From positions 62,001 through 126,000 of the forward strand of contig CALXSY010000001.1 in NCBI GenBank assembly GCA_944391285.1: DNA of 64,000 bases, given 5' to 3'. Position 1 is the first letter of the stretch; every line of letters begins with the position of its first letter. This document shows, one piece after another, positions 36,056 through 61,363 of the stretch. The position numbers and the translations under genes are program-made. A model generated the notes under the pieces. It was not told the DNA's origin and searched no databases. It saw only the letters and a list, made by a program, of their open reading frames with translations. Source of the stretch: an uncultured Clostridia bacterium (GTDB lineage Bacteria; Bacillota; Peptococcia; Peptococcales; Peptococcaceae).

Positions 36056-36077
36056 TAAAATATTAGCTATAGTAAGC

Positions 36078-36297
36078 TTTGATGAGGACAAGAAAGAAAG
36101 GACAAGCACTAAAGAGAATGACGTCTCAGGCTGCAAGCGTCTGTGCCGAGCTTATCTTTTACCGCCTCGGAGCAGTTAGGGCGAACCCTAACCGGCTTAT
36201 CCCCGTTAAAGGATCGAGAGTGGGAGCTATGCTTCAACTTGGGTGGAAACACGGGAAATATATTCTCGTCCCAAAAGGGACGGGAATTTTTTTTATT
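36078..36297 (+). promoter_or_regulatory. T-box leader of thrS
   Basis: A structured leader of about 220 bases. The antiterminator core reads CTTGGGTGGAAACACGGG, close to the T-box consensus, with TGGA to pair with the tRNA acceptor end. Stem I closes GAGG with CCTC, and ACC (36161-36163), a Thr codon, sits where the specifier is expected. TTCTCGTCCC (36263-36272) and GGGACGGGAA (36277-36286) form the terminator with eight T. Uncharged tRNA-Thr should allow read-through into thrS. The specifier call is inference. Confidence 0.9.
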
Positions 36298-50123: not shown

Positions 50124-51473
50124 ATGAGAATGATTTATAATGTGAGCGATAAGCCACCCTTTGGGCAGCTGATTATTTTTGCTCTTCAGCAGCTTCTGGC
50201 AATTATGGCAGCTACCTTGGTGGTACCGGTTATTATCGGTAATGACATGAGTCCGGCAGCGGCTTTGTTTGGCGCCGGTGCAGGCACATTGGTATATATT
50301 GCGTTTACCAAAAGGCGTTCGCCGGTATTTTTGGGCAGCTCGTTCGCTTTTATCGGCTCTATGAGCACCGCTTTTGCCGGAGCAGTATCGGTTAGTGTAG
50401 GTTATGTGGGTTTAATTATCGGTGCATTTTTTGCCGGCTTGGTGTATGTAGGGATTGCAGCCGTTGTCAAAATTGCCGGTGTAGGCTGGGTCAATAAATT
50501 GATGCCGGCAGTGGTTATCGGACCTACAGTAGCCATCATCGGTTTGTCCTTAGCCGGCAATGCTATCGGCGATTTATTAAGCGGCGATGCTCATATCATA
50601 GTTGACGGTGCCAGTGTAATGGCGACCTCACCTTATGTAGCTTTAATTTGCGGCTTGGTTACGCTCTTTGTAACGATGATTGCCAGTACCTACGGCAGAG
50701 CAATGGTTAAATTAATTCCCTTTATTATCGGCATTTTAGCCGGCTATGCGGTAGCAGCAGTCTTTACAGTTATCGGCAATTCTACCGGCATGGATAGTTT
50801 GTGCGTCATCAATTTCGGAGTATTTAGCTCTATGGACAGCATTTTATCCCTGCCCCAATTTACCTTCGTAACTGCCAAAGAAGGACTGGCTATGGTTGAC
50901 GGAGCGTATTTGGCAACAGTGGCAGTGGCGTATGTGCCGGTAGCTTTTGTAGTATTTGCCGAGCATATCGCCGATCATAAAAATTTGTCCTCCATTATTG
51001 AAAAAGATTTGCTGGAAGATCCGGGACTGCACCGCACCTTGCTTGGTGACGGCGTTGGCTCGATGGTCGGTGCCTTTTTCGGCGGCTGCCCCAATACGAC
51101 CTACGGCGAATCGGTAGGGTGTGTGGCTATCACCCGCAACGCTTCGGTAGTGAGCATTATTGCGGCGGCTTTAGGCGCCATCATCATTTCTTTTGTAACG
51201 CCATTTGTTGCTTTTGTTGAATCTATTCCGCCGTGTGTTATGGGCGGGGTGTGCATGGCATTGTACGGCTTTATCGCAGTCAGCGGTTTAAAGATGCTGC
51301 AAAAGGTGGATTTGGACGAGGAGAAAAATTTATTTGTTGCTTCGGTTATTTTGATTGCCGGTATCGGCGGCTTAACTTTAACCTTTGGCAAGGTTACCTT
51401 GACCTCGGTTGCCTGCGCGCTTATTTTAGGTATTATCACTAATGTCATTCTTTCCAAGAAGAAAGAATATTAA
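50124..51473 (+). CDS. uraA: Uracil/xanthine permease family protein
   Basis: 449 residues, 12-14 hydrophobic segments, NCS2 family. [19 protein letters not shown] at the start, [12 protein letters not shown] and [13 protein letters not shown] are the substrate-site motifs of UraA. upp follows 22 bases later, so uracil is the likely substrate. ATG at 50124 has AGGAGG ten bases upstream. Confidence 0.93.
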
Positions 51474-59277: not shown

Positions 59278-60111
59278 TTATTTTGCGTTGTAGTAAATGG
59301 TTTGGTTGGGCTCAACAGAGCTGGTGAGCCAAACGTTACCGCCAATAACGCAGTTGTCGCCGATAAAGGTGTTGCCGCCCAAGATGGTAGCATTGGCGTA
59401 GATGACAACGTTATTGCCAATATTGGGATGGCGTTTAATGTCTTTGATGGGGTTGCCGTTTTCGTCCAGCTTGAAGCTCTTAGCACCTAAGGTAACACCG
59501 TGATAGAGTTTGACGTGGTCGCCGATAACGGTAGTTTCACCGATAACGATGCCGGTGCCGTGGTCGATAAAGAAATATTCGCCGATAGTTGCGCCGGCAT
59601 GGATATCGATACCGGTTTTTTGGTGAGCATGTTCGGTCATGATGCGGGGAATCAGCGGTACATTGAGTTTGTAAAGCTCATGAGCCAAGCGATAGATGCT
59701 GATAGCATAAAAGCCCGGATAGCAAATCAAAATTTCCTCATAGGTTTTAGCAGCCGGGTCGCCTTCGTAGAGGGCAACGATGTCTTTTAAAAGCAGAGAT
59801 TTGATTTTAGGCAGAGTGGTTAAAAATTTATTGCAGATATCCTCGGCGGTTTGGTCATTTACTTGATTGCCGAAAAGGAAAGCTCTTTTTAGCTCTCTTT
59901 TTAAATTGTAGTAGATGCTTTCCAAAAGTTCACCGTCAGCGATATTGCTGTGGCGTTTGAAGCACATGGGGAACATGAGGGACTGCAAATCCTGAATGAT
60001 GCGGGCGATTTCGTCGGTGTCGATGATTTGACCGACATAATCAGCATCGGTTAAAACGTTCTCCATAGTAATTTGATCCAATTCTGCTACTGTCTTTTTG
60101 ATGATGTCCAT
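59278..60111 (-). CDS. cysE: Serine O-acetyltransferase (EpsC type)
   Basis: 277 residues. The N-terminal half is a helical domain; the C-terminal half is a left-handed beta helix of hexapeptide repeats (IDIHAGATIGEYFFIDHG, TVIGDHVKLYHGVTLGA, HPNIGNNVVIYANATILGG). His residues in IDHGTG and YHGVTLGA are in the active site. It makes O-acetylserine for CysK. Second gene of the cysK-cysE operon. Confidence 0.94.
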   Translation of the reverse strand: MDIIKKTVAELDQITMENVLTDADYVGQIIDTDEIARIIQDLQSLMFPMCFKRHSNIADGELLESIYYNLKRELKRAFLFGNQVNDQTAEDICNKFLTTLPKIKSLLLKDIVALYEGDPAAKTYEEILICYPGFYAISIYRLAHELYKLNVPLIPRIMTEHAHQKTGIDIHAGATIGEYFFIDHGTGIVIGETTVIGDHVKLYHGVTLGAKSFKLDENGNPIKDIKRHPNIGNNVVIYANATILGGNTFIGDNCVIGGNVWLTSSVEPNQTIYYNAK

Positions 60112-60145: not shown

Positions 60146-61072
60146 TTACTTAAACATGGGGGTAGATAAATAACGCTCGCCGCTGTCCGGAAGGATAGCA
60201 ACGATGTTTTTGCCTTTAAAATTTTCCCGCTTTGCTACTTCTGCGGCAGCAGATAAAGCGGCTCCGGAGGTGATGCCGACTAAGATTCCTTCTTTGGCGG
60301 CAAATTGACGACCGTAATGATAAGCGTCCTCTTCGGCGACGGTGATGATTTCATCGTAAATATTCTGATCAAGGGTTTCCGGTACGAAGTTGGCACCGAT
60401 GCCCATTAATCCGTGGGGACCGGCTTTGCCCTGGGAAAGCAGGGGAGAATTAGCCGGCTCGACGGCGACGATGTGAATGGAAGGATTTTTCTCCTTTAAA
60501 TATTTGCCGATACCGCTGATAGTACCGCCGGTACCCACACCGGCTATCAAAACCTCTACTTTACCGGCAGTATCTTCCCAGATTTCCGGGGCGGTAGAGC
60601 GGTAATGAGCTTGGGGGTTGGCTTGATTGGTAAACTGACCGGCGATGATGCTGCCGGGATTAGCGGCTTTAATCTCATCTGCCTTGGCTAAGGCGCCGCT
60701 CATGCCTTGGGCGGCAGGAGTTAAAACCAACTCAGCGCCGTAGGCTTTCATCAAAAGCTTGCGTTCCTCGCTCATGTTTTCCGGCATAACGATGATGGCT
60801 TTGTAGCCTTTGGCGGCGGCAATGGCAGCGATGCCGATGCCGGTGTTGCCGCTGGTCGGCTCAATGATGACTGAGCCGGGGACAAGAAGATTGTCTTTTT
60901 CCGCCTGCTCAATGATATTTAAGGCTACCCGGTCTTTGATGCTGCCGGCGGGGTTAAAATATTCCAGCTTGGCTAAAAGAGGGGTGTCGAGCCCTAAGCT
61001 TGCGCTGAAGTTTTTACACTCCAAAAGGGGCGTACGCCCTACCAGCTCGCTTAAATTATGATAAATTTTCAT
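60146..61072 (-). CDS. cysK: Cysteine synthase (O-acetylserine sulfhydrylase)
   Basis: 308 residues, PLP fold type II. Lys46 in PAGSIKDRVA binds PLP; PTSGNTGIG and GVGTGGTISG bind substrate and phosphate. It makes cysteine from O-acetylserine and sulfide. ATG at 61072 follows GGAGG. A leader with a Cys-rich peptide gene and a terminator lies upstream and probably controls expression. Confidence 0.95.
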   Translation of the reverse strand: MKIYHNLSELVGRTPLLECKNFSASLGLDTPLLAKLEYFNPAGSIKDRVALNIIEQAEKDNLLVPGSVIIEPTSGNTGIGIAAIAAAKGYKAIIVMPENMSEERKLLMKAYGAELVLTPAAQGMSGALAKADEIKAANPGSIIAGQFTNQANPQAHYRSTAPEIWEDTAGKVEVLIAGVGTGGTISGIGKYLKEKNPSIHIVAVEPANSPLLSQGKAGPHGLMGIGANFVPETLDQNIYDEIITVAEEDAYHYGRQFAAKEGILVGITSGAALSAAAEVAKRENFKGKNIVAILPDSGERYLSTPMFK

Positions 61073-61097
61073 GCTAAAAACCTCCAAATCTTAAGAA

Positions 61098-61132
61098 ATA
61101 AAAAAAGCAGAAAGCCAAAATGACTTTCTGCT
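61098..61132 (-). terminator. Attenuator in the cysK leader
   Basis: AGCAGAAAG and CTTTCTGCT form a 9-bp stem; on the minus strand TTTTTTTATTT follows. It lies between the leader peptide gene and cysK. Confidence 0.88.
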
Positions 61133-61179
61133 CAAAATAATCTCGAAACTACACCCTGCAATAACCCCTTTAAATAGGC

Positions 61180-61305
61180 TTAACAGGTGTGAGAGACAGG
61201 CGAAAGCATTTTGCTAAAATCGGCGCACAAAACTACAGACATAGCGTTACAACACATGCCTTCGCAACAGATAGCGTTAAAGAATTGGCTGCCTTTTTGC
61301 ATCAT
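61180..61305 (-). CDS. Cysteine-rich leader peptide of cysK-cysE
   Basis: 41 residues. It starts MMQKGSQFFNAICCEGMCC and ends SHTC. Cys lies at 13, 14, 18, 19, 27 and 41, the last sense codon being Cys. AAGGAGG precedes the ATG at a good distance, and a promoter lies just before it. An intrinsic terminator separates it from cysK. This is the layout of ribosome-mediated attenuation: stalling at Cys codons when Cys-tRNA is short would change the RNA fold. The final CACACCTG can pair with CAGGGTGT downstream, which could be part of the switch. No match to a named leader family is claimed. Confidence 0.75.
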   Translation of the reverse strand: MMQKGSQFFNAICCEGMCCNAMSVVLCADFSKMLSPVSHTC

Positions 61306-61334
61306 TGCTTCCTCCTTTTCCATAGATTAAATTT

Positions 61335-61363
61335 AGTTTAACACTAATAAATGACTCTGTCAA
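61335..61363 (-). promoter_or_regulatory. Sigma-A promoter of the cys leader and cysKE
   Basis: On the minus strand TTGACA (61358-61363), 17 bases, TAAACT (61335-61340), about 30 bases before the leader peptide start. Confidence 0.85.

Follow-up and report, generated by a model that had tools for sequence, protein, structure and literature searches.

A cysteine-rich leader frame and an intrinsic terminator ahead of cysK-cysE in a Clostridia bacterium: a candidate ribosome-mediated attenuator

The window analyzed is a stretch of 64,000 nucleotides of DNA from an uncultured Clostridia bacterium of the Peptococcaceae, and all coordinates refer to it. Its minus strand carries a cysteine synthase gene (cysK), followed by a cysE-like serine acetyltransferase gene and by a biotin-ligase-like gene. 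The cysK product matched TIGR01139 with 424.5 bits, versus a cut-off of 350.95. For the cysE-like gene, the best NCBIfam match was TIGR01172, with 160.8 bits and thus below the cut-off of 210.65; EpsC NF041874 scored 150.5 bits, just above its cut-off of 150, and there were Pfam matches to SATase_N and Hexapep. The features of the region are, in the direction of transcription:

61335..61363, minus strand: promoter-like site, TTGACA, 17 nt, TAAACT, with TG before the -10; a consensus match only
61311..61316, minus strand: leader Shine-Dalgarno AGGAGG, 5 nt ahead of the ATG at 61305; read directly
61180..61305, minus strand: leader peptide frame, 41 codons plus TAA, with Cys at codons 13, 14, 18, 19, 27 and 41
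61256..61265, minus strand: segment 1, GCGAAGGCAU, between the two CC codon pairs; predicted duplex with segment 2 of -15.7 kcal/mol
61200..61210, minus strand: segment 2, AAUGCUUUCGC, codons 32-36; candidate antiterminator strand, from predicted duplexes
61151..61191, minus strand: hairpin CACACCTG/CAGGGTGT across the peptide end and the stop codon; from folding
61105..61133, minus strand: intrinsic terminator, 13 pairs and a 3-nt loop, then a U tract; folded and read
61081..61085, minus strand: cysK Shine-Dalgarno GGAGG, 8 nt ahead of the ATG at 61072; read directly
60146..61072, minus strand: cysK, cysteine synthase A
59278..60111, minus strand: cysE-like serine acetyltransferase, from NCBIfam and Pfam matches

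The promoter, the strong ribosome-binding site and the 41-codon frame with six Cys codons that the first-pass annotation had picked out are all present on this strand. Concerning the promoter, seven such sites were found in the scanned region versus 5.5 expected from shuffles. The leader frame, which has a second in-frame ATG at 61302, 8 nt from AGGAGG, encodes the peptide MMQKGSQFFNAICCEGMCCNAMSVVLCADFSKMLSPVSHTC, whose six Cys include two CC pairs. Its Cys content was compared within the set of 17 frames of 15–60 aa that, on both strands of the window, start with ATG after a strong ribosome site: eleven of them contain no Cys, the runner-up has three and the leader frame six. The binomial chance of at least six Cys in 39 codons is, per frame, 1.2e-4 at a Cys frequency of 2% and 1.0e-3 at 3%. 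The parts of the leader, their order and the bias towards Cys codons are plain in the sequence. The spacing of the two CC pairs is not in itself unique, since as a DNA pattern it occurs nine times across the 1.7 Mb genome. Elsewhere in the window, a small frame of 44 aa at 50978 on the minus strand has a ribosome site, an HCHCC stretch and three Cys, and is possibly a chance frame.

The terminator folded with -17.5 kcal/mol (z -6.4), and none of 200 shuffles was as good. The first-pass annotation was right about its presence and underestimated its length, given there as 9 bp. From the end of its stem to the cysK ATG there are only about 30 nt, so that a second promoter has no room there, and a promoter scan of the same strand from the leader promoter to cysK gave no further promoter. 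With a strong terminator so close to cysK, the operon should therefore depend on read-through. Upstream of the terminator, the complementarity noticed earlier between the end of the peptide and the sequence just downstream was borne out as the hairpin across the stop codon, with a core formed by CACACCTG (61191-61184) and CAGGGTGT (61158-61151), an energy of -14.4 kcal/mol and a z of -2.17 (5/200 shuffles equally good). This hairpin has no overlap of its own with the terminator. The whole leader folded with z -3.83; minus the terminator the value was -1.71 (12/200 shuffles), the structure of the remainder thus exceeding that of shuffles only mildly.

Conservation was considered in a sample of 21 genomes of the order, 20 of them with cysK matches, which provided, besides the cysK of the window, 25 cysK-like loci from 19 other genomes. 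At none of these 25 loci was there a frame with at least two Cys preceded by a ribosome site. Thus, no conservation of the frame was seen at the loci sampled from the order. The order loci are nevertheless poor tests of leader conservation, because most of their cysK genes stand elsewhere in the cysK tree: a quick tree built from 135 CysK rows has a branch (SH-aLRT 95) uniting the window CysK with the other rows, and 23 of the 25 rows from the order fell outside it. The two remaining rows (L033 and L042), of the same family as the window, were placed near that branch without firm support, and nothing comparable to the leader was seen in the regions upstream of them. The window CysK is up to 66% identical to Clostridia-type CysK versus 40–59% within its own order, hinting at transfer or hidden paralogy, with which the quick tree agrees. 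The relatives compared were those of the order-level list and of a list of 100 genomes, both with the window organism as the only genome of its genus; among them, no relative was found that has the terminator and lacks the frame, the case that the first-pass annotation had named as refuting its reading.

A search with the peptide gave matches at E up to 1 in 24 of the 100 genomes, the own match having an E of 1.1e-24 and the next one 0.014. When 26 peptide-match loci were searched by tblastn, cysK was found only at the own locus, L001 (a duplicate of L027 in the set of upstream regions described below). These results bear on the alternative that the frame is a small independent gene, served by a promoter and a terminator of its own, whose Cys-rich product might bind metal, and that cysK transcripts arise by read-through or at a different start. 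The frame does have a promoter-like site, a ribosome site and a terminator of its own, and a CCxxxCC spacing might bind metal; but the peptide matches no Pfam or NCBIfam family, the 100 relatives gave no non-self match at E < 0.01, none of the 25 weaker matches stands beside a cysK, and the space between terminator and cysK is too little for a promoter. Such a gene is quite unlikely. The suggestion of the first-pass annotation that the peptide binds a metal or a cluster likewise finds no backing in a family match or in a homologue ahead of another cysK.

Other cysK upstream regions were collected by likeness to the window cysK. Of the loci added to the set, all from among the matches listed, 29 came automatically and 80 by hand, the latter in rank order with several rows skipped; from the resulting 216 regions, near-duplicates and regions shorter than 120 bases were dropped, leaving 208 including the own one. 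The criteria for a ribosome site were fixed after viewing examples. Of the 207 other regions, among the matches listed, 31 held ATG frames with a strong ribosome site, 33 in all. As the set was picked by similarity and the criteria followed the examples, the enrichment figures are indicative: Cys was, among the matches listed, the most enriched residue of the 33 frames (1.97-fold); 16 of them contain Cys, when 400 shuffles gave a mean of 7.5 and a maximum of 16, with a fraction as high in 4/400; and five contain CC, versus a shuffle mean of 0.33 and a maximum of 3 (400 shuffles). With laxer criteria (also GTG and TTG starts, and fewer loci), the excess was weaker, 4.4% Cys versus a shuffle mean of 3.0% (sd 0.8).

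One of these regions, L120, comes from an unrelated locus of Clostridia and is laid out like the window leader: MYGMMCCCQQSSCCGGQLCMAFHA, with Cys runs CCC, CC and C, is followed by a terminator-like hairpin and a U tract ahead of cysK. Judged from its sequence, L120 qualifies as an independent analogue of the window layout. When the 208 regions, among the matches listed, were scanned automatically for terminator-like elements, 22 had one; the scan missed that of L120, whose loop is longer than 8, and in the same scan only the window showed an ATG frame with a strong ribosome site and a Cys run reaching a terminator. A further locus, L092, from a Lachnospiraceae metagenome-assembled genome, has a 42-codon frame that contains seven Cys, CC and CCC among them, and ends 30 nt ahead of cysK; the automatic scan found no terminator between this frame and cysK.

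The recurrence of Cys-containing frames before cysK has to be weighed against the alternative that the leader frame is a chance open reading frame in a 5′ leader, and that the terminator is an ordinary polar or constitutive control element. The lack of conservation in the order would fit this, as would search lists devoid of another genome of the genus; however, chance alone would also have to provide the Cys richness, at the per-frame values given above, together with a strong ribosome site in the same frame. We regard a chance frame as improbable.

A different kind of short frame was met at eight loci (L053, L060, L061, L083, L084, L090, L100 and L170, with L086 and L111 as weaker members), about 50–125 bases before cysK. 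At the eight main loci the frames have 5–12 codons. The frames end in an Arg-Cys dicodon, and most are preceded by a strong promoter and by a palindrome of the type CCTATAAA..TAGG. Aligned in ten rows, the two weaker members included, they display a CGA-TGT dicodon, and several have the palindromic stretch after the -10. Frames with a strong ribosome site that end in [RK]C near the stop occurred at 7 of the 207 loci, versus a shuffle mean of 0.43 and a maximum of 2 (300 shuffles). The automatic scan found no terminator between frame and cysK at these loci. From sequence features, the group looks like a separate class of cysteine- or sulfur-linked uORFs of Oscillospiraceae-type genomes. Considering both kinds of leader, it is possible, and we put it forward tentatively, that Cys-sensing leaders have arisen repeatedly before cysK in otherwise T-box-using Clostridia-like bacteria, in at least two designs: one with inner Cys runs and an intrinsic terminator (the window and L120), and a terminator-less, Oscillospiraceae-type one with a near-invariant CGA-UGU (Arg-Cys) end downstream of a palindromic, operator-like stretch.

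Amino-acid genes of Gram-positive bacteria are usually thought of as controlled by repressors and T-boxes. A T-box or riboswitch at the leader was considered and rejected: no Rfam family reached its gathering score, the T-box covariance model (RF00230) gave no match there, and the sub-threshold matches were weak, as that to the L20 leader (21.5 bits versus a gathering score of 58.7). The same genome holds 21 T-box matches, 15 of them above the cut-off, ahead of genes that we take to be those of prephenate dehydrogenase, ileS, tyrS, pheS, thrS, serC, glyQ, asnB and O-acetylhomoserine sulfhydrylase. The organism thus uses T-boxes widely, with none recognized at cysK. In the window itself, a T-box leader lies at 36070-36276 on the plus strand, before a gene presumed to be thrS-like; with 79.6 bits it is under the gathering score of 93 and hence missing from the default scan. 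When 20 chosen loci of the upstream set were run against Rfam, anywhere in the locus, the matches were one T-box (L109), one pan motif (L030) and one 5S rRNA (L034).

The possibility of an RNA switch between the leader frame and the terminator was studied by folding nascent transcripts from the front edge of a ribosome to just before the 3′ arm of the terminator. Segment 2 is predicted to form, besides its duplex with segment 1, another with the 5′ arm of the terminator (segment 3); this second duplex contains two 1-nt bulges and has an energy of about -10 kcal/mol. As long as the ribosome stood at codons 1–10, segment 1 paired with segment 2 around AUGCUUUCGC with values of 0.70–0.98. The predicted pairing of segments 2 and 3 was 0.39, 0.83, 0.35, 0.26 and 0.90 with the A site at Cys 13, 14, 18, 19 and 27, respectively; it did not exceed 0.09 for ribosomes at codons 1–10, and was 0 without a ribosome or with the ribosome at codons 32–42. 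The complementarity of segment 2 to segments 1 and 3 was compared with shuffles of the codons (permuting codons 21–41) and of the bases, in a test set up post hoc, after the folds had been seen: the sum was equalled in 9/1500 codon shuffles and 8/1500 base shuffles, and in a stricter version, scored by the weaker of the two duplexes, in 101/1000 and 56/1000.

In equilibrium folds the terminator won at all ribosome positions. The energy cost of freeing its 5′ arm, evaluated at the inner Cys codons, gave an on-minus-off difference of 0.89 kcal/mol, with 89/272 shuffles as good. The same energy test on E. coli trpL gave 7.39, with 0/400 shuffles as good. A paired-fraction measure of the 5′ arm was equalled in 39/574 shuffles, and ribosomes at codons 1–8 likewise left the arm partly paired. 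For the L120 leader the energy test was only borderline (23/400 with the CCC codons, 116/200 with all Cys codons). A clean trp-like switch in the window leader, which the truncated folds had seemed to support, was thus not borne out by either shuffle null, and a three-hairpin switch is, from these models, plausible and weakly supported.

It could be argued from these folds that the terminator is a true attenuator whose sensor is an unrecognized RNA ligand or RNA-binding protein, or the translation of the leader in general, the Cys richness being incidental. The leader is structured, and its switch fold is not specific for the Cys positions beyond chance. Nevertheless, the weakness of the L20-leader match and the Rfam result speak against a known element of this sort, and six Cys codons ahead of a cysteine operon would have to be a coincidence; we hold this alternative to be unlikely.

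It seems reasonable to interpret the leader as a ribosome-mediated, cysteine-responsive transcription attenuator of the cysK-cysE operon, a reading that we consider probable and hold with moderate confidence. It is favored because a frame of Cys codons and an intrinsic terminator stand directly before cysteine-making genes, and because the frame has a near-consensus ribosome site and six Cys codons, two CC pairs among them; further support comes from the strong terminator close to cysK, from the pairing of segments 2 and 3 predicted at the inner Cys codons, from the summed complementarity of segment 2, from the repetition of the layout in L120 and from the Cys enrichment of frames upstream of other cysK genes. 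The first-pass annotation had proposed control by the supply of Cys-tRNA; this is supported in part, through the anatomy and the likeness to L120, but neither conservation of the frame at the order loci nor a convincing RNA switch was seen.

What we infer is that the frame is translated, that ribosomes stall on it, that the antiterminator pairs, and in which direction the operon responds, as follows. RNA polymerase would start at about 61328, followed by a ribosome that translates the leader peptide. With ample Cys-tRNA, this ribosome would pass the CC pairs and reach the stop codon, segment 2 would be covered or sequestered, and the terminator would form before cysK. During a shortage of Cys-tRNA, it would stall at codons 13–19 or 27, covering or clearing segment 1, so that segment 2 could pair with the 5′ arm of the terminator and the polymerase could enter cysK-cysE. 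If true, the leader would offer a small and testable device for sensing charged Cys-tRNA. Two things make it of interest, its presence alongside T-boxes and the hint that Cys-codon leaders recur ahead of cysK in Clostridia-like bacteria. Should cysK run on a Cys-codon leader despite the 15 T-boxes, both strategies of tRNA sensing would coexist in one organism, swapped gene by gene.

Concerning known systems, the E. coli trp attenuator shares with the window a leader frame, tandem regulatory codons and overlapping 1:2, 2:3 and 3:4 pairings, predicted ones in the window, but trpL shows a clear energetic switch in the same test and the window leader none. Cys leader peptides of actinobacterial cys operons are reportedly the subject of Canestrari 2020. 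Those operons have Cys leader peptides without conserved terminators, with the mechanism given as translation attenuation or possibly Rho-dependent (PMC1262725, PMC4633059). The likeness lies in a small Cys-rich frame before cysteine or sulfur genes, read as cysteine-responsive; the Cys run there is near the stop codon and no conserved terminator hairpin is described, whereas the window has inner CC pairs and an intrinsic terminator (PMC1262725, PMC4633059).

Similar in layout is the uORFC-8-2 motif before cysS in Rhodobacterales, a tandem-Cys uORF with a terminator that is read as ribosome-mediated attenuation: a short uORF with tandem Cys, usually at codons 14–15 (13–14 in the window), precedes an intrinsic terminator (PMC8632094). 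That motif, however, belongs to Alphaproteobacteria and to a cysteinyl-tRNA synthetase gene, and is described with 145 examples and a conserved two-stem structure, whereas the window offers a single cysK leader with no conserved model (PMC8632094). For hisS*/hisZ of bacilli, a His leader peptide of the regular kind is described, likewise in Firmicutes, a group whose usual sensor is the T-box; it differs in concerning histidine and other genes, and in that similar sequences are common to the bacilli paralogues (PMC2965389). A limited search of the open-license literature gave no description of a Cys leader peptide at cysK or in Firmicutes/Clostridia. The probable style of control is known, and its place, the cysK of a Clostridia bacterium, would be new.
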